In this document: in pieces, positions 11,053-21,022 of the stretch | How positions within the stretch are numbered: the first letter of the stretch is position 1 | How the letters are laid out: every line of letters starts with the position of its first letter | From: a gamma proteobacterium HIMB30 | GTDB taxonomy: Bacteria > Pseudomonadota > Gammaproteobacteria > Pseudomonadales > Litorivicinaceae | Reading direction: 5' to 3' | Assembly (NCBI GenBank): GCA_000227525.2 | Contig: AGIG01000010.1 | Location: 1 to 48,655, forward strand | DNA: 48,655 bases | Position numbers and translations under genes: made by a program | Notes under the pieces: model-generated | What the model was told of the DNA's origin: nothing | Databases searched by the model: none | Seen by the model: only the letters and a program-made list of their open reading frames with translations

Positions 11053-12180
11053 ATGTCGTCAATATATCCAAAGATCGATCCCGACGGTCTACTTGAGTAC
11101 TCTGTTGTATTCACTGATCGCTCGATGAATCACATGTCCAAAGCATTCCAAAAGGTCATGTGCGATTTGCACGCTGGCTTAACCAGCGTCTACAAAGCGC
11201 AATCCTGCGTTTTGGTGCCAGGCGGCGGTTCCTTCGCGATGGAATCGGTTGCACGTCAATTTGCGAGAGACCAAAAGGTTCTTGTTGTCCGAAACGGTTG
11301 GTTCAGTTACCGCTGGACCCAAATTTTCAATCAAGGCGTCACGCCCTCACACGCGGAAGTTGCCCAAGCACGTCCGGATACAAATGCTGCAGATCAACAA
11401 TTTTCGCCGGTCCCGGTCGGTGAGGTCTGTGCGCAGATCCGGTCAGAAAAACCGAATCTGGTCGTGGCACCTCATGTCGAAACCTCTGCTGGGATGTTGC
11501 TGCCAGACAGCTACATTCAGGCACTCACAGAGGCAGCTCATGAAGTCGGTGGCCTTTTTGTTCTTGATTGTGTCGCCGCCGGAGCACTGTGGGCTGATAT
11601 GGACGCGCTTGGTGTTGATGTTCTGATTACAGCGCCGCAGAAAGGCTGGACCTCGACGCCCTGCGCTGGAGTGATCATGCTGTCGAATCGAGCGCTGGAA
11701 CGTCTCAAAACGACGACATCTGACAGTTTTGTGCTCGATCTGAAGAAGTGGCACAGCATCATGGACGCATACCTAAGCGGTGGTCACGCGTACCATGCAA
11801 CAGTGCCTACAGATGGGCTGGCAAACTTCCTCGATACCTATAATGAAATGGCAACGATCGGCTTTGATTCGCTCAAAGCCAATCAGATTGAGCTCGGTCG
11901 CCAGATCCGTGAGCTCATGGAAGGTTACGGATTCAAAAGTTTAGCGGCAAACGGCTTCAAATCGCCAACCGTGGTTGTTTCCCATACCGATCGTGCTGAC
12001 TTCAAAAATGGCAGTGCGTTTGCAGATGTTGGACTCCAGATTGCCGCCGGTGTTCCTCTGGAGTGCGGTGAATCTGCTGACTTTCAAACATTTCGGATCG
12101 GCCTATTCGGGATGGATAAACTGATGAACATCGATCGCACCGTGACGCTTCTGGACGACGCTCTCAGAAAGATGATCTAG
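11053..12180 (+). CDS. class V PLP-dependent aminotransferase (alanine-glyoxylate type)
   Basis: This 375-residue fold-type I enzyme resembles alanine-glyoxylate / serine-pyruvate aminotransferases of class V. The cofactor lysine is K197 in TAPQKGW, the ring-nitrogen aspartate is D172 in FVLDCVA, and the phosphate-binding loop PGGGSFAMES lies near 56-65. ATG at 11053 is preferred over the longer frame because AGGA lies nine bases upstream and the upstream codons overlap the tadA 5' region. Its substrate cannot be read from sequence. It ends four bases into the convergent SMR gene and lies about 1.3 kb from the TAXI/class III aminotransferase/BKACE operon, so it may serve the same amino-acid pathway, which is inference only. 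Confidence 0.82.
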   Translation: MSSIYPKIDPDGLLEYSVVFTDRSMNHMSKAFQKVMCDLHAGLTSVYKAQSCVLVPGGGSFAMESVARQFARDQKVLVVRNGWFSYRWTQIFNQGVTPSHAEVAQARPDTNAADQQFSPVPVGEVCAQIRSEKPNLVVAPHVETSAGMLLPDSYIQALTEAAHEVGGLFVLDCVAAGALWADMDALGVDVLITAPQKGWTSTPCAGVIMLSNRALERLKTTTSDSFVLDLKKWHSIMDAYLSGGHAYHATVPTDGLANFLDTYNEMATIGFDSLKANQIELGRQIRELMEGYGFKSLAANGFKSPTVVVSHTDRADFKNGSAFADVGLQIAAGVPLECGESADFQTFRIGLFGMDKLMNIDRTVTLLDDALRKMI

Positions 12181-12512
12181 CTCGACTGAGTCGAACTGAA
12201 TAAGTTCACGAGGATCACCCCTGCCACAATCAAAGCAAGTCCAACGATGGCTTGCCATTGCAACAGTTGTTTGTAAACAAATGCACTGAATATCGCGATC
12301 AGAAACACGCCGATGCCGCTCCAAATGGCGTAGACAATCGCTATTGGAATGTCTCGGATCGCGAAGGTCAGACAGTAGAAAGCGATGGCATAGCAACAAA
12401 TCATCGTGATGGTCGGCGCAATCCGGGTAAAGTTTTGAGTCGCTGGGAGTAATAGCGTCCCCATGACCTCACAAACAATCGCACCCCCTAAGAACAAATA
12501 ACTAATCATCAT
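12177..12512 (-). CDS. SMR family small multidrug/metabolite exporter
   Basis: This is a 111-residue protein with four predicted membrane helices, typical of the EmrE/Sug small multidrug resistance family, which works as a proton-coupled antiporter in dual-topology dimers. The key acidic residue is seen in the first helix (CEVMGT, about E15), and the conserved tryptophan lies in YAIWSGIG in helix three. Its start overlaps the stop of the RpiR regulator gene by four bases (ATGA), so the two are co-transcribed and the exporter may be under RpiR control. It could export a cationic compound, guanidinium or a polyamine. Nothing in the sequence decides among these. Confidence 0.88.
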   Translation of the reverse strand: MMISYLFLGGAIVCEVMGTLLLPATQNFTRIAPTITMICCYAIAFYCLTFAIRDIPIAIVYAIWSGIGVFLIAIFSAFVYKQLLQWQAIVGLALIVAGVILVNLFSSTQSS

Positions 12513-13363
12513 CGACCCTTCTGGTCTGTCTTCGAAAATTCCATCGAAGCATCAGGTGACCAATAGCCAGATAACTTCTCTATATCATCTTTGAAATGCT
12601 TAAGCTGTCGTCGTGATTTTCGATCCTGCAGACCACAGCCTGTTTCGACCAAATACTCAATCCAAGCGAAAAACGAAATTCGACTCGGAATGTAATCCAT
12701 GGGAATTTGATTAATCACCACAATTTCATCAGCAAGCTCACACAGTGGAGATTCAGAGCTATCCGTTACCGCAACTATTCGAATTCCGGTTTCTCTCGCC
12801 ATTTTCGCAACTTTGATCGACTGTGACGCATAAGGGTGAGTCGAAAAAATCACCAGCACATGATCAGGACGCGCAAGCATTAAATGATCAAATGCCGCGC
12901 TCTCTGAATTCGGCACAAGAAATACGTTGTGCTGGATCATATTGAGGAGGTGGGCAAGATAATGCGACAAACTATAGGCACTTCGAAAACCGGCAACATG
13001 GCACGGTGATTGGAATACCAACCGTGCAATCCGATTCAACTGTTCGCGCTTTTCTGGAACAAACACACTCCCCAAAGCAACACGGAACGAATGCTCGTGC
13101 TCGCTTTCTCGAGATGATGCCGCGATCCGAGAAGCACCCAGAAACTCCCGCTTAAAAATTGTTTGAAGGCTCTGATAGGTCTCAAGTCTCAATGATTTGA
13201 CCAACCGCATGACAGTCGACGGGGTGACTCCTGAGCGCTCAGCCAACTGCCGAACACTCAGAAATGGAATATCAGAACCGTGACGTAACATGAAACGGCC
13301 AACACGCTGTTGCGTCGGCGGACATTCCTCAATCTTCGCTCTGATTGCGTGGATGTTCATCAT
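12509..13363 (-). CDS. MurR/RpiR family transcriptional regulator
   Basis: This regulator of about 284 residues has an N-terminal RpiR-type helix-turn-helix (VRQLAERSGVTPSTVMRLVK) and a C-terminal SIS domain that binds phospho-sugars or other small ligands (FSTHPYASQS, then AVTDSSESPLCELADEIV). ATG at 13363 or 13360 is more family-like than the upstream extension to 13429. It is divergent from the TAXI-TRAP operon, with about 147 bases between them holding an inverted repeat (13372-13385), and is co-transcribed with the SMR gene. By position it is the likely local regulator of the uptake and catabolism operon. RpiR proteins next to amino-acid catabolic genes are common in marine proteobacteria. 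Confidence 0.87.
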   Translation of the reverse strand: MMNIHAIRAKIEECPPTQQRVGRFMLRHGSDIPFLSVRQLAERSGVTPSTVMRLVKSLRLETYQSLQTIFKREFLGASRIAASSRESEHEHSFRVALGSVFVPEKREQLNRIARLVFQSPCHVAGFRSAYSLSHYLAHLLNMIQHNVFLVPNSESAAFDHLMLARPDHVLVIFSTHPYASQSIKVAKMARETGIRIVAVTDSSESPLCELADEIVVINQIPMDYIPSRISFFAWIEYLVETGCGLQDRKSRRQLKHFKDDIEKLSGYWSPDASMEFSKTDQKGR

Positions 13364-13371
13364 TTCCCGGC

Positions 13372-13385
13372 GGAACAAACGTTCC
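13372..13385. promoter_or_regulatory. inverted repeat, candidate RpiR operator
   Basis: A perfect inverted repeat GGAAC-AAAC-GTTCC lies directly upstream of the rpiR-type start, in the divergent region shared with the TAXI operon. Its position suits autoregulation. With five-base arms it could occur by chance, and no second copy of the same half-sites was seen next to the TAXI gene, so the call is tentative. Confidence 0.3.
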
Positions 13386-13432
13386 AAAAAAATACGACTT
13401 TCGACTAATACGACACGATCGTACCACAAAGT

Positions 13433-13510: not shown

Positions 13511-14479
13511 ATGAAGATTAAACACTTCGCCCTTGCGTCTGTTGCGGCATTCGGATTGACTGCTGGTGCAGTTCAAGCTCAACAGTTCATCTCCATCGGT
13601 ACTGGTGGCGTCACAGGTGTCTACTACCCCACTGGTGGTGCAATCTGTCGTCTCGTGAATAAGGATCGTAAAACGCACGGTATCCGTTGTTCAGCGGAAT
13701 CAACCGGCGGGTCTGTGTATAACATCAACACGATCCGTGCTGGCGAGCTAGAATTCGGGGTCGCCCAGTCTGATTGGCAATATCACGCATACAACGGGAC
13801 ATCAAAATTCAAAGATCAGGGTGCGTTTACCGATTTGCGCGCTGTGTTCTCAGTGCACCCAGAGCCATTCACTTTGCTCGTTCGCGGTAAGTCATTTAAC
13901 AACGTCAAAAAGTTCGAAGACCTGAAAGGCATGAAAGTGAATGTCGGTAATCCAGGTTCAGGGCAGCGTGCAACCATGGAAGTCGTCATGGATGCATTTG
14001 GAATGAAGATGAGCGATTTCGCTGTTGCGGCAGAGCTCAAGGGTTCTGAAATGGCACAAGCGCTGTGCGATGGCAAAATCGACGCGATGATCTATACCAT
14101 TGGTCACCCAGCAGCAGCGATCACAGAAGCAACCAACAGTTGCGACGTGCGTCTGGTTTCTGTGAAAGGTGCTCCAATCGATAAGTTGGTCGCTGATAAC
14201 TCGTTTTATCGCGTCGCGACTGTCCCAGGTGGCATGTACAAAGACAATCCAAACGAAACAACAACATTTGGTGTTGGTGCGACCTTCGTGACCTCTGCGA
14301 AGATTCCGGATAACGTTGTGTACACGGTCGTTAAAGCAGTTTTTGACAACTTCGCCGACTTTAAGAAACTCCACCCAGCATTTGCCAATCTAGACGAACA
14401 GCAAATGATCAGTGATGGACTCTCTGCGCCGATTCACCCGGGTGCAATGAAGTACTACAAAGAACGCGGCTGGAAATAA
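13511..14479 (+). CDS. TAXI family TRAP transporter solute-binding protein
   Basis: This is a 322-residue periplasmic substrate-binding protein of the TAXI (TRAP-associated extracytoplasmic immunogenic) family. A clear signal peptide ends in AGAVQA near residue 23, followed by the family opening [19 protein letters not shown] and a typical [11 protein letters not shown] segment. ATG at 13511 has AAGGAG seven bases upstream, so the longer upstream frame is not used. TAXI proteins with known ligands bind dicarboxylates or amino acids such as glutamate and 2-oxoglutarate, but specificity here is open. The gene for its membrane partner follows after a strong stem-loop. It is the first gene of a four-gene catabolic operon. 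Confidence 0.95.
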
Positions 14480-14493
14480 CCAACGGCCATTGC

Positions 14494-14515
14494 AGAGGGG
14501 GTGAGAACCCCCTCT
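14494..14515 (+). terminator. intercistronic stem-loop without a U-tract
   Basis: A perfect nine-base-pair stem (AGAGGGGGT pairing with ACCCCCTCT) encloses a four-base GAGA loop. It lies between the stop of the binding-protein gene and the start of the permease gene. No run of T follows, so it is unlikely to be a full rho-independent terminator. Hairpins here usually stabilise the upstream message or cause partial termination, so that much more binding protein than permease is made. A GTG at 14501 lies inside the stem, which argues against using it as the permease start. Confidence 0.7.
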
Positions 14516-14536
14516 CCTCACTCGGCACGACCTCTC

Positions 14537-17122
14537 ATGACCCCAGACCAACCGATCTCTCCCACAGAACAACATGGGCAGCCGCCAATGGGTAGTGGGC
14601 GAACGTTAATCCTGACGTTGTGTTTCCTCTGGTCGGTATTCCAGCTCTATGTGGCTTCAGTGATCCCGTTCGTTTTAACCGAATGGACTGGACTGAGCCT
14701 CGTATTCAACAATCAAGAAATTCGACAAGTTCATTTGGCATTCGCACTTGCCCTTGCCATGCTCGCGTTTCCTCTACGAAGGAATCCAGCAAAACAAACG
14801 ATCGCTTGGTATGACTATGCGGCAGCCCTGATTGCGGCAGGCTCTTGTCTCTACCTACTCATTTTCAAAGACCAGATCTCCGATCGTGCAGGTCTCCCAA
14901 CAACGAGTGATTTGTGGGTTTCGGCCATCGGTATGCTAAGCCTGGCGCTTGCACTTTACCGATGCCTTGGTCTACCGCTGCTACTGGTCTGTTCATTTTT
15001 CTTGTTCTATGTGTTTTTTGGTGATCAAAGTTTCATGCCTGAAACCGTTCAGTGGAAAGGCGCGTCACTCAACAAAGCCCTTTGGCATTTCTGGATGCAA
15101 ACCGAGGGCGTCTTTGGCGTCGCACTCGGCGTTGCCTCATCAATGATTTTTCTGTTTGTCTTGTTCGGCGCTTTGTTAGAAAAAGCTGGTGCTGGCATCT
15201 ACTTCATCCGACTCGCGTATGCATTACTAGGACACATGCGTGGTGGTCCGGCAAAAGCGGCTGTCGTGGCGTCAGGCCTTTCGGGGATTTACTCTGGTTC
15301 GTCGATCGCAAACGTTGTCTCAACGGGCACATTCACCATCCCATTGATGAAAAAAACTGGGCTAACGCCTGAAAAAGCAGGTGCAGTGGAAGTTGCTGCA
15401 TCAACCAATGGTCAGCTCACACCCCCGGTGATGGGAGCCGCTGCCTTCTTAATTGCAGAGTTCACTGGAATTTCCTATTTAGAACTGATCACCCATGCGA
15501 TACTTCCAGCCATCGTTTCCTATATTGGATTGATGTATATCGTTCATCTGGAAGCTGTCAAATTAGGCCTTCAGGGATCTGATCGATCGTCACGAGCGCT
15601 TCCACTTGCGCAAAAACTAGGCGGTGTCATTGCTGGGTTTATCGGATTTGGTCTTCTCGGATTTCTGACCCAACTACTCTTTGGTTGGACTCAAGATGTA
15701 TTCCCGACAGCAACGATTCCCGCGGCGATCGCTCTCTTTTTATTGATCTATTTAGCGACCTTGAAAGTCGCCGCAAAAAGCCAAGACCTTGGCGATCTCC
15801 TCGCTGACGATCCGTCAACACGTGACATTCCTGCGCGCGAAATTCTGGTTCAAGGCCTGCATTTTCTGGTCCCGATCGTGGTTCTACTGTGGTGCGTTTT
15901 GATCGAACGCCTGTCGCCTGCACTCTCGGCTTTCTGGGGAACCATGGCCATCTTGTTCGTGATCCTGACGCAAGAACCCCTGAAAAACTATTTCCGAGGC
16001 CAAGCATGGACAAATTCTCACTGGAGTGTTGGCTTTCGTGCTGCGCTGTCGGGAATGATCCAAGGTGCTGAAAACATGATCAGCATCGGCGTCGCAACCG
16101 CTGCAGCAGGACTGATTATCGGGACTGTCTCCCTCACCGGTGCGCACCAGGTGATTGGCGAGCTCGTCGAGGCACTGTCGGGCGGGAATCTCATTTTAAT
16201 GCTGCTTCTGGTTGCGTTGATGTGTTTGATTTTAGGGATGGGACTTCCAACCACCGCCAATTACATCGTTGTCTCGTCATTGATGGCCCCAGTGATCGTG
16301 AGTGTAGGGGCGCAATCCGGATTAATCGTGCCACTAATCGCTGTGCATTTATTTGTGTTCTACTTTGGGATTCTGGCTGATGACACGCCCCCCGTTGGCT
16401 TGGCCGCCTTTGCAGCGGCTGCAATCAGTCAAGGCGACCCCATTCGCACAGGTATCCAAGGTTTTGCTTACGATATCCGAACCGCGATTTTACCTTTCAT
16501 CTTCATATTCAATACCGATCTCTTGCTCATCGATGTGACTTGGATCCAGGGGATTATCATCTTTATCGTCGCTGCATGCGCCATGATGCTATTTGGCGCC
16601 GCCACTCAAGGGTTTTGGATGGTCAAATCACGTTGGTGGGAAACAGTCGCGCTCCTGCTGATTGCCTTCACACTGGTAAGACCGGGTTATTGGATTGATC
16701 AATTCCAAGCACCTTGGGTTTCATTTGACGTCAATGAGTCGGCTTTGAATCGATCGGACCTCGACGGTCAAGTGCAACTCACCATTGAAGGCCCTGATTT
16801 TGATGATCCTGATCAAACCACGCAGTTAATTCTCCTGGTTAAAGTGACCCAATCGCAAGTCCTCGCGACTGCACTTGATACAGTCGGGATTCTTGCGCGT
16901 GCCGAAGATCAAAACGTATTACTGGATGAGCCCTTTCCGGGAACTGAGTACTTCCAGTCCATGCAACGTTTTGATTTTTATGGGGATACACCTGTTCAAA
17001 TTACTGACCTTGCGATCGAACAAACAAACCGACTCACCAAGGAATCGATGTATATCCCTGCATTGATCCTCCTTTTGATCGTCGGGTGGTCACAACGAAC
17101 TCGCCGTTTGAAGGAGGAATAA
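14537..17122 (+). CDS. TRAP transporter permease, fused 4TM/12TM subunits (TAXI type)
   Basis: This is an 861-residue fused DctQ-DctM permease, the form normally paired with TAXI binding proteins. Many hydrophobic helices fill residues about 25-710. The DctM motifs GMGLPTTANYIV and ADDTPPVGLAAFAAAAIS are visible. After these comes a soluble periplasmic C-terminal domain of about 110 residues resembling DUF3394, then one last membrane helix. It imports the TAXI ligand using an ion gradient. ATG at 14537 is preferred because the upstream GTG lies in the stem-loop, although no strong Shine-Dalgarno precedes it. The stop directly abuts the start of the aminotransferase gene. Confidence 0.93.
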   Translation: MTPDQPISPTEQHGQPPMGSGRTLILTLCFLWSVFQLYVASVIPFVLTEWTGLSLVFNNQEIRQVHLAFALALAMLAFPLRRNPAKQTIAWYDYAAALIAAGSCLYLLIFKDQISDRAGLPTTSDLWVSAIGMLSLALALYRCLGLPLLLVCSFFLFYVFFGDQSFMPETVQWKGASLNKALWHFWMQTEGVFGVALGVASSMIFLFVLFGALLEKAGAGIYFIRLAYALLGHMRGGPAKAAVVASGLSGIYSGSSIANVVSTGTFTIPLMKKTGLTPEKAGAVEVAASTNGQLTPPVMGAAAFLIAEFTGISYLELITHAILPAIVSYIGLMYIVHLEAVKLGLQGSDRSSRALPLAQKLGGVIAGFIGFGLLGFLTQLLFGWTQDVFPTATIPAAIALFLLIYLATLKVAAKSQDLGDLLADDPSTRDIPAREILVQGLHFLVPIVVLLWCVLIERLSPALSAFWGTMAILFVILTQEPLKNYFRGQAWTNSHWSVGFRAALSGMIQGAENMISIGVATAAAGLIIGTVSLTGAHQVIGELVEALSGGNLILMLLLVALMCLILGMGLPTTANYIVVSSLMAPVIVSVGAQSGLIVPLIAVHLFVFYFGILADDTPPVGLAAFAAAAISQGDPIRTGIQGFAYDIRTAILPFIFIFNTDLLLIDVTWIQGIIIFIVAACAMMLFGAATQGFWMVKSRWWETVALLLIAFTLVRPGYWIDQFQAPWVSFDVNESALNRSDLDGQVQLTIEGPDFDDPDQTTQLILLVKVTQSQVLATALDTVGILARAEDQNVLLDEPFPGTEYFQSMQRFDFYGDTPVQITDLAIEQTNRLTKESMYIPALILLLIVGWSQRTRRLKEE

Positions 17123-18475
17123 ATGGCTGCGTCTCAGTCTGTTTTTGGCCGAGCACCCCGCACCACGCTGCCGACCGCAGTTGCCGGTGATGGGATTTAT
17201 TTGATTGATTCCGACGGAAAGCGCTACCTCGACGCTTGCGGTGGCGCCGCCGTCAGTTGTCTTGGGCACTCCCCGAAGCGAGTGATTGACCGAGCATGTG
17301 AACAGTTACAGAAACTCGCATTCGCGCATACAGGCTTCTTTACCTCAGAGCCTGCTGAACAATTGGCCAACGTGCTCGTTAACGAAGCGCCGACTGGTGT
17401 CGAACACGTATATTTCGTCTCTGGCGGAAGCGAGGCCGTTGAGGCCGCGCTGAAATTGGCACGTCAATATTTCCTTGAGATCGGACAACCCGATCGAACA
17501 CATGTGATTGGACGTCGCCAGAGCTATCACGGAAATACGCTTGGAGCCCTCGGTAGCGGCGGTAACCAATGGCGACGACGCCAATTTGAACCGCTGCTTC
17601 CAACGCACATGAGTCATATCAGTCCATGCCACTACTATCGCTGGGCAGAAGCAGGCGAAACACCTTTCGACTATGGCCAACGGGTTGCCAACGAACTCGA
17701 GCAAGAGATCCTGCGGATTGGTGAAGGCAAAGTTGCAGCATTCATGGCAGAACCAGTCGTTGGTGCTACGATGGGAGCGGTACCCGCTGTCGACGGCTAC
17801 TACACGCGGATCCGCGAAATCTGTGACCGATACGGGGTATTGTTGATTCTCGATGAAGTCATGTGCGGCATGGGTCGGACAGGCCATCTTTACGCCTGTG
17901 ATCACGACCAAATCAAACCAGACATGCTCTGCATTGCCAAAGGGCTAGGTGCAGGCATACAGCCCATTGGGGCCATGCTTTGTCAAAATTTTATTTACCA
18001 GGCAATTGTTAACGGTTCTGGATTTTTCCAACACGGACATACCTACATCGGCCATCCGACCGCCTGTGCTGCTGGACTGGCTGTGATGGAAGAACTCATC
18101 CAACCGGGAACAATGCAGCATGTGCAAGCAATGGGAACGCTCTTGCAGGCATCATTGCATGACGCGCTTGGCTCGCACTCCTGGGTTGGGGACATCCGAG
18201 GTCGTGGTCTATTCGTTGGCGTCGAACTGGTGAGTGATAAAGAGACCAAAGCACCTCTCGACCCAAATCTCAAGACTGCAGCACAAATTAAAAAAGTAGC
18301 AATGAATCATGGCCTCATGTGTTATCCAATGTCAGGCACCATTGATGGCCAGTCTGGAGATCATGTCTTGCTTGCACCACCATTCATCATTGAAGCCGCT
18401 GATATCCAAATCATCACGGAGAAATTATCGCTCGCGATCAGCGAAGTCAGCGGACAATCGGAACGAGCAGCATGA
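17123..18475 (+). CDS. class III PLP-dependent aminotransferase
   Basis: This 450-residue enzyme is a class III (omega/beta-amino acid type) aminotransferase. The PLP lysine is K273 in CIAKGLGAG, the ring aspartate is D244 in LILDEVMCG, and the phosphate loop is SGGSEA near residues 100-105. Family members move amino groups from beta- or omega-amino acids, diamines or similar donors to pyruvate or 2-oxoglutarate. AAGGAGGA inside the end of the permease gene serves as its ribosome-binding site. It overlaps the BKACE-like gene by four bases (ATGA). The tight coupling suggests that it makes the keto acid cleaved by the next enzyme. The exact substrate is unknown. Confidence 0.92.
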   Translation: MAASQSVFGRAPRTTLPTAVAGDGIYLIDSDGKRYLDACGGAAVSCLGHSPKRVIDRACEQLQKLAFAHTGFFTSEPAEQLANVLVNEAPTGVEHVYFVSGGSEAVEAALKLARQYFLEIGQPDRTHVIGRRQSYHGNTLGALGSGGNQWRRRQFEPLLPTHMSHISPCHYYRWAEAGETPFDYGQRVANELEQEILRIGEGKVAAFMAEPVVGATMGAVPAVDGYYTRIREICDRYGVLLILDEVMCGMGRTGHLYACDHDQIKPDMLCIAKGLGAGIQPIGAMLCQNFIYQAIVNGSGFFQHGHTYIGHPTACAAGLAVMEELIQPGTMQHVQAMGTLLQASLHDALGSHSWVGDIRGRGLFVGVELVSDKETKAPLDPNLKTAAQIKKVAMNHGLMCYPMSGTIDGQSGDHVLLAPPFIIEAADIQIITEKLSLAISEVSGQSERAA

Positions 18476-19236
18476 CAACGATCATGGTTGCGCCAAACGG
18501 TGCGCGGAAGACAACTCAAGATCATCCGGCTGTTCCGGTCACCGACCAAGAACTCCTTGATACTGCTGTCGCATGCTTTGGTGCGGGAGCGCGTGCTCTT
18601 CATGCGCACATTCGAACAAATGAACAAGTCCATCTGTTGGATGTGGAGCGATACGAAACCTTGATTCAATCGCTCGGCGAACGGCTACCAGAGCTGCAAG
18701 TACAGGTCACATCTGAGGCCGCTGGCATTTATGAGTCTGATGCGCAAATCGACCTATTGTCGCGATTGAAAGCGCCTTGGGTGTCGGTTGCCATTCGAGA
18801 AATTCTGAGGTCTCAAGAGCCGCAAACCCTTCAACCGTTTTTCGAACAACTACTTGATAAAAGCCGAGTGCAGTTCATCCTCTACGACGCCGATGATTTT
18901 CAGACCCTCACATCACTTGTGGAGCGTGAGATCATCCGAACGGAATCACTCGAAGTACTGTATGTACTCGGACGATATTCGACGAATCAGGAGAGCACCC
19001 CCGATCAACTTGATCCATTTCTTGAGTTCAGAGATCGTGCGCCGACACATGTAAAACCTGTCCGCGAGATGATCTGTGCATTCGGCCGTGGTCAAATTCC
19101 TTGCTTGTTACGTGCAGCATCTGAAGGCATGGATTTACGCATTGGCTTTGAAAACGGAGTCTGGCTGCCAGATGGAGAGATTGCTGAAAACAATGCTACA
19201 CTCGTGACCGCTCTAGTCGGTTTGCTTCCGGCTTGA
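18472..19236 (+). CDS. BKACE family (DUF849) beta-keto acid cleavage enzyme, short form
   Basis: This 254-residue protein matches the BKACE/Kce family, TIM-barrel zinc enzymes that cleave a beta-keto acid with acetyl-CoA to give acetoacetate and a new acyl-CoA. The N-terminal strand VAPNGARKT, the zinc pair H44/H46 in HAHIR, and the third expected ligand E227 in RIGFEN are visible. From memory of the family, the residue after the ligand glutamate is usually Asp and is catalytic in Kce; here it is Asn. The C-terminus is about 20 residues shorter than in typical members of 270-310. It is translationally coupled to the class III aminotransferase, which fits removal of an amino group followed by cleavage. 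Confidence 0.85.
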   Translation: MTTIMVAPNGARKTTQDHPAVPVTDQELLDTAVACFGAGARALHAHIRTNEQVHLLDVERYETLIQSLGERLPELQVQVTSEAAGIYESDAQIDLLSRLKAPWVSVAIREILRSQEPQTLQPFFEQLLDKSRVQFILYDADDFQTLTSLVEREIIRTESLEVLYVLGRYSTNQESTPDQLDPFLEFRDRAPTHVKPVREMICAFGRGQIPCLLRAASEGMDLRIGFENGVWLPDGEIAENNATLVTALVGLLPA

Positions 19237-20103
19237 TCCGCTCGACACGATCATCACAATGCCTGATCCAATGATCAGGCTACTCCCCAACACCATCATC
19301 GCGTTGATTTCTTCATCAAAGAAGACCACGGCGAGGCCGAGGGCAAACAATAAACGGGTGTAGCGAAACGGAGCGACGACCGCGACATCGCCACCACGAG
19401 TGGCCATCACCACACAAAAGTACGCGCCCGTTCCTGCGAGCGTCGACACCACTAACAAACTAAGGTGTTCCAGAGTCAAAGGACTAAAATCGGCAAAGAA
19501 AGGAATGGTGACAACTCCTGCCATCAATAACGCAAAAAAAGCCCAAAAAGACACAGCGACCGCAGGGATCGATACGGAAATAGCGCGTGTAATGGCATCG
19601 CGCAATGCGAGGAACATGACACCAACAATCGCAAACAATGCAGCCGGTTTGAATCCATCCAACCCGGGCTGAATCACCATGAAAACGCCGACAAATCCAA
19701 TTGTAATCAGAATCCATTGTCGTCCACTGACATGCTGCTTTAAAAAAATCGCTGCCGCCAGAGACACTGCCAATGGGGTTGCCTGGAGGATTGCTGAGGA
19801 CACCGAGAGTGATGCATAAACAATTGCGATAACAAAGAAAATGGCCGATGCCAGTTCAGAAACTGTTCTGACCACGAACCATGGCTTCGTTACCTCAGGC
19901 GAGAACAGATGCACCCGTGTAAGCATCGCTGTCACGCCAAAGGTTAACACACCACCGCAGCCGATCAGCATCAAGACCTGTGAAACAGGCATTGAATACG
20001 CCAGTTGTTTAATCACCGCGTCCTCAATGGCAAAACCAGCCATTGCAGCGATCATAAACAGAATGCAGCGGATATTTTCTTCTGTGGCAGATTGATTACT
20101 CAC
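19213..20103 (-). CDS. EamA/DMT family transporter
   Basis: This is a drug/metabolite transporter superfamily protein of 296 residues with about ten predicted helices in two EamA repeats. Conserved family features include short glycine- and proline-containing loops such as FVGVFMVIQPG near the end of the first repeat. I chose GTG at 20103, because the longer open frame to 20256 lies inside the GST gene and is not hydrophobic in the family pattern. This start overlaps the GST stop by eight bases. Its 3' end overlaps convergent BKACE by 24 bases. Whether it exports a metabolite of the neighbouring pathway is unknown. Confidence 0.87.
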   Translation of the reverse strand: MSNQSATEENIRCILFMIAAMAGFAIEDAVIKQLAYSMPVSQVLMLIGCGGVLTFGVTAMLTRVHLFSPEVTKPWFVVRTVSELASAIFFVIAIVYASLSVSSAILQATPLAVSLAAAIFLKQHVSGRQWILITIGFVGVFMVIQPGLDGFKPAALFAIVGVMFLALRDAITRAISVSIPAVAVSFWAFFALLMAGVVTIPFFADFSPLTLEHLSLLVVSTLAGTGAYFCVVMATRGGDVAVVAPFRYTRLLFALGLAVVFFDEEINAMMVLGSSLIIGSGIVMIVSSGSSRKQTD

Positions 20104-21022
20104 ACGACTGGATCTGATAGCCCGCGACTGGCAAATGAACAACCACATCTCCAACCTCTGGCGCATGATGATCAATTGAAACGCGAAAACGATCCAAATA
20201 GCGTAAACGCCCAACAACCGGCTGATCGGATGTTTCAGCTTGTGGCTTGATCGCAACCTGCATTCCTTGTTTCAGCGCGACACCACACTGCTCAGTCACC
20301 CCTGAGGGCGATTGAGACTCGGAGTTGGCAGCAAGCTTCAAGGCGTCCTCAGCTGGTAAATCTTCGTAGGCTTCACAGACAACGTCATGCACTTCGCGTT
20401 CAATACGCTCGATGTTCGCAAACTGCTGAAGAAACTCTGGACCTTGGTCCCAGCGACCACGAATAAACCAAGCAAGATAGGCGATGGTCACATCAGCGTA
20501 CGACAATTCGTTTGAGATTAAGCCACCCTGACCACTGAGCCCGCTGTCAATCGAATGTAAATGCGCCGCCAGTTGTAAAATCACCCCCGGTAATTGAGAT
20601 TTCAGACCCTCCGGAGTCCAGTTCGGCCCAAAATATAAACCGCCACGATCTTGAATAAATTCTGCAGGTGCAGTGTCGAGCGCTGAGGTTAAAACAACTC
20701 TTGCGGCCAAGTTGAAAACTGTACCATCTACCCAATCAGTGAAGGCCAGAATTTTTTCGCGTCGCTCGGTAGGCAGCAACTGATGATTCTCAGTAACCTC
20801 AGCCAGCGCACGAACAATATTTTGAGTGTCACAATAGACATCAGCACCGCTCTGAAGGACAGGCGTTCTTCGGTAACCAGCGGTCAAAGGCATCAGTAAT
20901 GGCTTCGGTGGTACGCGAGGAATTTCCACCGATTTCCAAGGAATACCCGAGAGTCCGAGCGCTAAGCGAATTTTATGTGCAAATGGTGATGGCCAATAAT
21001 GATGCAGGATCAAATCTGACAT
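20096..21022 (-). CDS. glutathione S-transferase family protein
   Basis: This is a 308-residue protein with an N-terminal thioredoxin-like GST domain (LILHHYWPSPFAHKIRLALG, residues about 4-23, then TPVLQSGADVYCDTQNI). A helical C-terminal GST region runs to about residue 220, followed by an extra C-terminal segment rich in beta-strand residues. Proteins of this layout are common in proteobacteria and mostly uncharacterised, and the usual GST catalytic Ser/Tyr/Cys cannot be assigned with confidence. It is transcribed ahead of the EamA gene in a coupled pair and lies just left of an AT-rich spacer. Confidence 0.85.
   Translation of the reverse strand: MSDLILHHYWPSPFAHKIRLALGLSGIPWKSVEIPRVPPKPLLMPLTAGYRRTPVLQSGADVYCDTQNIVRALAEVTENHQLLPTERREKILAFTDWVDGTVFNLAARVVLTSALDTAPAEFIQDRGGLYFGPNWTPEGLKSQLPGVILQLAAHLHSIDSGLSGQGGLISNELSYADVTIAYLAWFIRGRWDQGPEFLQQFANIERIEREVHDVVCEAYEDLPAEDALKLAANSESQSPSGVTEQCGVALKQGMQVAIKPQAETSDQPVVGRLRYLDRFRVSIDHHAPEVGDVVVHLPVAGYQIQSCE

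Follow-up and report, generated by a model that had tools for sequence, protein, structure and literature searches.

Four consecutive genes of the gamma proteobacterium HIMB30 encode a TAXI-family TRAP solute-binding protein, a fused TRAP permease, a class III aminotransferase and a zinc TIM-barrel enzyme of the beta-keto acid cleavage enzyme (BKACE) family, and this set is a recurring, widespread module, beyond chance. We propose, with a probability of about 0.4, that it serves the regulated catabolism of a glutamate-like amino acid, which would be imported, transaminated and then broken down as a beta-keto acid by a step independent of coenzyme A (CoA). The genes lie in a stretch of 48,655 nucleotides (contig AGIG01000010.1, hereafter the window) from a genome of 2.17 Mb. 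Named close relatives include uncultured Litoricola and Gammaproteobacteria bacterium LSUCC0096, an isolate of OM252 ('Ca. Halomarinus') (PMC8269220; this and the other papers cited by PMC number are drawn on in excerpt).

The initial annotation placed the four genes on the forward strand in this order, with the last three contiguous, and our gene-level analysis agrees with it on both the layout and the coordinates. The TAXI gene (13511 to 14479, the stop codon included) starts at the ATG at 13511, preceded by the ribosome-binding site AAGGAG, and its VcGluP-like product matches TIGR02122 with 352.5 bits (cut-off 84.35) and the structure 8s4j with an E-value of 2.9e-126. The fused permease (14537 to 17122, in a reading frame open from a GTG at 14501) scores 620.7 bits against TIGR02123 (cut-off 320.65) and contains PF06808 and a C-terminal DUF3394 (PF11874). 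Both the model for the binding protein and that for a single fused permease support the TAXI-TRAP assignment. The ATG of the aminotransferase gene (17123 to 18475) comes immediately after the TAA of the permease; its product is of the PRK07483 type (NF005685, 738.4 bits, cut-off 485; PF00202, 313.2 bits). It overlaps by the letters ATGA with the gene of the BKACE-family enzyme (18472 to 19236; PF05853, 151.2 bits against 24.8). A gene for a MurR/RpiR-type regulator with a SIS domain, which the initial annotation did not mention, lies directly upstream and diverges from the operon (12509 to 13429, reverse strand; PF01380, 64.1 bits; PF01418, 28.7 bits).

Linkage of the module genes across genomes

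To analyze the distribution of the module, we used a single draw of 398 Pseudomonadota genomes, the window's own included, and took the BKACE-like gene as present at an E-value of 1e-30 or better and the aminotransferase at 1e-110 or better. The BKACE-like type was identified in 32 genomes and the aminotransferase in 53, with both present in 28 (Fisher p 3e-24, relatedness not corrected). The two genes lie within 3 kb of each other in 24 of these 28 genomes and not in the other 4.

Outside the source family, 35 loci with the BKACE-like type were collected (the phylum draw supplied 32 and a class draw 3; up to 19.5 kb each). Neighbour counts in these loci rest on tblastn, the gene-call neighbour lists being incomplete, with some genes missed or misplaced. 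In 25 loci the BKACE-like gene has an aminotransferase match (43% identity or more) nearby and in 17 a TAXI gene, and two further loci (L074 and L075) hold only a 33% class III match. Among the loci with both enzymes, the order and direction of the genes differ, which argues for a functional association over an inherited gene order. An RpiR-type gene, at 20–29% identity, lies near the aminotransferase and BKACE-like genes in many other loci as well.

The class draw (274 genomes) contains at least seven genomes with full-length copies of the window enzyme's clade (G000, G534, G576, G488, G476, G594 and G453). A class III aminotransferase is present in the locus for six of the seven copies, recognised by eye in G476, G594 and G453; in the seventh genome, G488, the BKACE-like gene sits at a contig end. 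BKACE-like matches also occur in 149 plasmid records, five of which were inspected. The aminotransferase and BKACE-like genes overlap on four of these, all alphaproteobacterial, and on the fifth, a Sinorhizobium plasmid, an RpiR gene sits between the two.

Across 25 genomes of the source family, the BKACE-like gene is found in 16, the aminotransferase in 10 and the TAXI gene in 8. All 10 genomes with the aminotransferase also carry a BKACE-like gene, one copy of which contains stop codons. In that genome (G660, 56% complete), three stop codons interrupt the BKACE-like gene, which is on a different contig, and the aminotransferase shows only 49% identity; the stops could reflect either decay or an assembly error.

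A BKACE-family clade with isoleucine for the catalytic glutamate

We compared 45 proteins of the window enzyme's type, the window protein included, with 21 canonical members (Kce and 20 proteins from the class draw), numbering residues by the 254-residue window protein. The position of the catalytic glutamate (E171 in PdKce, E143 in Kce) is occupied by isoleucine (I136) in 45/45 clade members and by glutamate in 21/21 canonical ones. Residue 132 of the window protein aligns with residue 167 of PdKce chain 8rio, so Ile136 corresponds to 171 if the chain numbering is native. The glutamate two residues before the catalytic position is replaced by glutamine (Q134) in the clade, and the residue after the zinc-binding glutamate is asparagine (N228) in 45/45 clade members and aspartate in 21/21 canonical ones. 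The clade has its own E82 and E110 (45/45) and H54, which canonical members mostly or wholly lack. By alignment, the His-x-His plus Glu zinc site is kept in 45/45 (H44, H46 and E227); the arginine and tyrosine corresponding to PdKce R254 and Y173 (R223 and Y138) are also retained. Thirteen of the 21 canonical members have phenylalanine at the tyrosine position, at odds with PMC12871164, an excerpt of which describes this tyrosine in all BKACE sequences.

Two rows were dropped from the residue table, a duplicate (L001) and a fragment (L067); the weak matches L070–L073 were unused, and 13 more family copies from the class draw (at least 291 bits) lie outside it. L065 and L068, from two genomes of one family, belong to neither group and represent a second non-canonical form, with alanine at both glutamate positions and the aspartate kept. 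In a quick tree of 68 rows, from which the 12 signature columns had been removed, the new type forms one side of a branch with an SH-aLRT of 100. The clade sample is not neutral, since most of its 45 proteins were collected through their resemblance to the window protein. A whole-family profile run over all collected loci identified 84 full-signature copies (overlapping loci counted twice), 21 canonical copies, two copies with alanine at both glutamate positions and two fragments, with no intermediate form. A wider scan of the BKACE family in the phylum covered the best ~150 matches, and no count of non-canonical forms was drawn from it.

A structure model built with nine sequences supports the fold (mean pLDDT 80.3, pTM 0.83), with a pLDDT below 50 at residues 83–86, beside E82, and at residues 49–54, which include H54. 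The solved structure nearest to the model is Kce. Foldseek also lists cis-epoxysuccinate hydrolase and ObcA, and the fold therefore serves other chemistry too. BsfD is described as a further family member that diverged from BKACE chemistry (PMC12871164). According to PMC4922564, which summarises Bastard et al. 2014, some DUF849 groups are not BKACEs: G6 (70 proteins) is decarboxylating, with activity on beta-ketoglutarate in 16 cases, and G7 (139 proteins) was inactive on all substrates tested. The clade without the catalytic glutamate would most naturally fall in G6 or G7, as judged from the descriptions of these groups.

The initial annotation assigned to this enzyme an acetyl-CoA-dependent cleavage of a beta-keto acid. 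For the clade, such a reaction appears doubtful, since isoleucine replaces the glutamate in 45/45 members and the E171L mutation is reported to abolish the BKACE activity of the Paracoccus enzyme PdKce (PMC11961710). The residue pattern makes a CoA-independent step such as decarboxylation likelier.

Substrate, intermediate and proposed pathway

At aligned positions, the TAXI protein and VcGluP are 62% identical, and most residues of the VcGluP glutamate site are kept, among them Y45, S75, Q93, H123, E125 and Y200. Of 13 tabulated pocket positions, 10 are unchanged and three differ (S40G, D157Q and M201T). Y45 and Q93 are described as the most important residues in VcGluP (PMC11574862). From this site we favour a glutamate-like ligand for the predicted binding protein. 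Outside the source family, 12 of the 17 TAXI proteins encoded close to the enzymes have the combination G40/Q157/T201. It is found in the module TAXI of G243 (L103), a genome with a second TAXI copy elsewhere that is 83% identical to VcGluP. As the mark of a new ligand, the combination was rejected, because some genomes that lack the module encode TAXI proteins with it. Two of the loci that were scanned, L120 and L095, encode polar amino-acid ABC binding proteins (SBP_bac_3) close to the genes. Inspection by eye of the aminotransferase active-site residues led to no conclusion about its substrate.

A beta-keto acid is the favoured shared intermediate, as if an aminotransferase or a dehydrogenase could each produce the keto acid. 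We favour it because a gene of the 3-hydroxyacyl-CoA-dehydrogenase family is present in 5 of the 10 loci without a close aminotransferase and absent from all 25 that have one (tblastn, p 8e-4; p 3e-3 when two loci of one genus count once). The dehydrogenase-family gene adjoins the BKACE-like gene in all five loci (L074, L075, L081, L090 and L092). Two of the five dehydrogenase proteins were scanned, and the one from L074 is closest to carnitine 3-dehydrogenases, below the cut-off. At another locus, L094, a class V protein encoded beside the BKACE-like gene was considered as another aminotransferase and rejected, its best matches being cysteine-desulfurase-like models.

We then propose a model for the pathway. 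The amino acid would be captured by the TAXI protein and imported by the fused TRAP permease, after which the class III aminotransferase would transfer its amino group to a keto acid and leave a beta-keto acid. The zinc TIM-barrel enzyme, as its residues suggest, may split this product without acetyl-CoA, most simply by decarboxylation, relying on zinc and the conserved arginine and tyrosine and dispensing with the canonical catalytic glutamate. The divergent RpiR-type protein would sense the substrate or a product. The import and transamination steps of the initial annotation are reasonable. The module recurs and the gene context favours a beta-keto acid; the acetyl-CoA-dependent cleavage that completed the scheme is not supported.

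One possible substrate is beta-glutamate, an osmolyte. It has been found in methanogens and a few bacteria (PMC1224877), and our guess is that it would suit both the binding site and the enzymes. Beta-glutamate would in that case be converted to 3-oxoglutarate and then to acetoacetate and CO2, and the acetoacetate would be activated by the acetoacetyl-CoA synthetase present in the genome (795.9 bits, cut-off 520.9). No match to a CoA-transferase was found in the genome. With the synthetase present, acetoacetate would be usable under either mechanism. We regard as unlikely the specific version in which the module is a dedicated beta-glutamate pathway, where TAXI-TRAP import is followed by transamination to 3-oxoglutarate, and a DUF849 clade that has abandoned acetyl-CoA chemistry decarboxylates this to acetoacetate.

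Several observations weigh against the reading as a catabolic module for a glutamate-like amino acid. In the phylum draw, 25 of the 53 aminotransferase genomes lack a BKACE-like gene. In the source family, 6 of the 16 genomes with a BKACE-like gene have neither the class III aminotransferase nor the TAXI gene (G658, G659, G661, G662, G672 and G674; completeness 72–98%), and one of these is 98% complete, so the four parts are not obligate. The keto-acid argument holds in part: no such dehydrogenase is present in L089, L094, L097, L101 and L108, the rest of the 10 loci, and L074 and L075, which come from one genus, hold their 33% class III match in addition to the dehydrogenase gene. The ligand of VcGluP, L-glutamate, is an alpha- and not a beta-amino acid, and G40/Q157/T201 recurs in TAXI proteins of module-less genomes such as G070, G138 and G174. 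The acetoacetyl-CoA synthetase may instead serve the breakdown of polyhydroxybutyrate (PHB). E82 or E110 could act as a relocated base, which would leave room for BKACE chemistry.

We examined 21 loci, from the 25 genomes that carry the aminotransferase without a BKACE-like gene. A carboxymuconolactone-decarboxylase-family gene is present in six (L109–L112, L123 and L126), which form a variant module with the same aminotransferase type and no BKACE-like enzyme; CxxC is absent from the five of the six proteins that were read. An Asp/Glu-racemase-family gene is present in five others (L114, L120, L127, L132 and L133), four of which have a close match to an SBP_bac_3 protein. One or two proteins of each kind were scanned with Pfam. 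Both families include decarboxylases, which is suggestive of unrelated enzymes filling the same step. Genes for C45 autoproteolytic hydrolases occur in L110–L112 and also in L084 and L085, two loci with a BKACE-like gene.

Class V aminotransferases of the PhnW-like kind are encoded near the BKACE-like gene in L003 and L006–L009, loci of relatives without TAXI, TRAP, class III aminotransferase or RpiR genes. In L003 and L007–L009 the first matched gene upstream of the BKACE-like one is the class V gene, and in L006 an SMR gene sits between the two. The class V aminotransferase may offer another way to the keto acid or simply be encoded nearby.

The enzyme could still be an acetyl-CoA-dependent BKACE in which E82 or E110 replaces the lost glutamate. 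The retention of H44, H46, E227, R223 and Y138, the conservation of E82 and E110 in 45/45 and the position of Kce as the closest solved structure would all fit this explanation. It has to accommodate the loss of the catalytic glutamate in 45/45, the change of the aspartate after the zinc glutamate to asparagine, the inactive E171L variant of PdKce (PMC11961710), a score of 70.2 bits against the Kce cut-off of 382 and the existence of family groups that are not BKACEs (PMC4922564), and we consider it unlikely. Alternatively, the BKACE-like protein might be a hydrolase or another lyase of the fold whose substrate is not a beta-keto acid, as the changed active-site acids and the shared fold of cis-epoxysuccinate hydrolase would allow. 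The dehydrogenase and aminotransferase neighbours, interchanged in five loci, both suit a beta-keto acid, and this explanation is improbable.

The remaining two explanations concern the substrate. The transporter may only supply L-glutamate, with the two enzymes acting on another compound or sharing no intermediate; the core of the VcGluP site is kept, some genomes have TAXI genes and not the enzymes, and some loci have the enzymes and no TAXI gene. We find this rather improbable, since 17 of 35 loci have TAXI close to the enzymes, with more than one gene order, and the TAXI beside the enzymes in G243 (L103) is unlike that genome's second copy, the one 83% identical to VcGluP. An aspartate-type route, in which the aminotransferase would yield a 2-oxo dicarboxylate such as oxaloacetate (also a beta-keto acid) for decarboxylation by the TIM-barrel enzyme, draws on the C4 dicarboxylates used by two fold relatives from Foldseek, ObcA (oxaloacetate; reaction in PMC12871164) and cis-epoxysuccinate hydrolase. 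The binding protein resembles glutamate binders, and an operon dedicated to aspartate would in our judgement be unexpected, making this route improbable. We retain as our working model the uptake and CoA-independent breakdown of a glutamate-like amino acid.

Surrounding features and comparison with known systems

The intergenic stretch between the TAXI and permease genes (14480 to 14536) was folded and contains a 9-pair hairpin on the forward strand at 14494 to 14515 (z -2.99); in L002 and L005 the core of the stem is the same and the loop differs. Because of this hairpin and its comparison, the ATG at 14537 is probably the permease start, in preference to the GTG at 14501. The hairpin may damp expression of the permease relative to the binding protein. 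No repeat that could serve as a regulator site was found upstream of the operon. Promoter-like sites number 4, below the mean of 7.4 in shuffled sequence, and terminator-like sites 15, above the mean of 8.7 (sd 3.4); neither count was used as evidence.

Farther upstream, in the operon's direction, lies a gene for a PhnW-like class V aminotransferase (11053 to 12180, forward strand; PF00266, 36.7 bits; TIGR03301, 95.9 bits, below cut-off). Downstream, genes for an EamA transporter and a glutathione-S-transferase-like protein occupy the opposite strand (19213 to 21022), and such genes adjoin the BKACE-like gene in L002–L009.

If correct, the model points to a so far undescribed way of degrading a natural amino acid, by which bacteria common in the sea may make use of a non-protein amino acid. 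The conserved partners narrow the candidate substrates of the BKACE-like branch. To our knowledge, no beta-glutamate transporter or catabolic aminotransferase has been known, and the beta-glutamate version, if true, would supply the first of each together with a function for a widespread DUF849 branch. We found no matching pathway in the literature searched, which comprised open-licence papers only, with most subscription journals outside it.

The clade has in common with canonical BKACEs such as Kce and PdKce the PF05853 TIM barrel, the His-x-His plus Glu zinc site and the conserved arginine and tyrosine. It differs from them in the isoleucine for the catalytic glutamate, the asparagine for the aspartate after the zinc glutamate and its own E82, E110 and H54, and shows ~25% identity to Kce in the structural alignment. 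With DUF849 groups G6 and G7, likened here by their descriptions only, it would share the status of a family member that is not a BKACE. The transport proteins resemble VcGluP-VcGluQM, the glutamate TAXI-TRAP system of Vibrio cholerae (8s4j; PMC11574862), in the core of the glutamate site and in a permease with a C-terminal extension. The module TAXI protein is distinguished by S40G, D157Q and M201T and by its position beside catabolic enzyme genes.

The carnitine-type route consists of a 3-dehydrogenase and a BKACE. The corresponding gene pair is described in PMC12421898. In that route and in our model alike, one enzyme forms the beta-keto acid and a member of the BKACE family breaks it down next, and the same dehydrogenase family adjoins the clade gene in five loci. 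The module reported here differs from the carnitine-type route in having an aminotransferase in place of the dehydrogenase, and a putative lyase without the catalytic glutamate.

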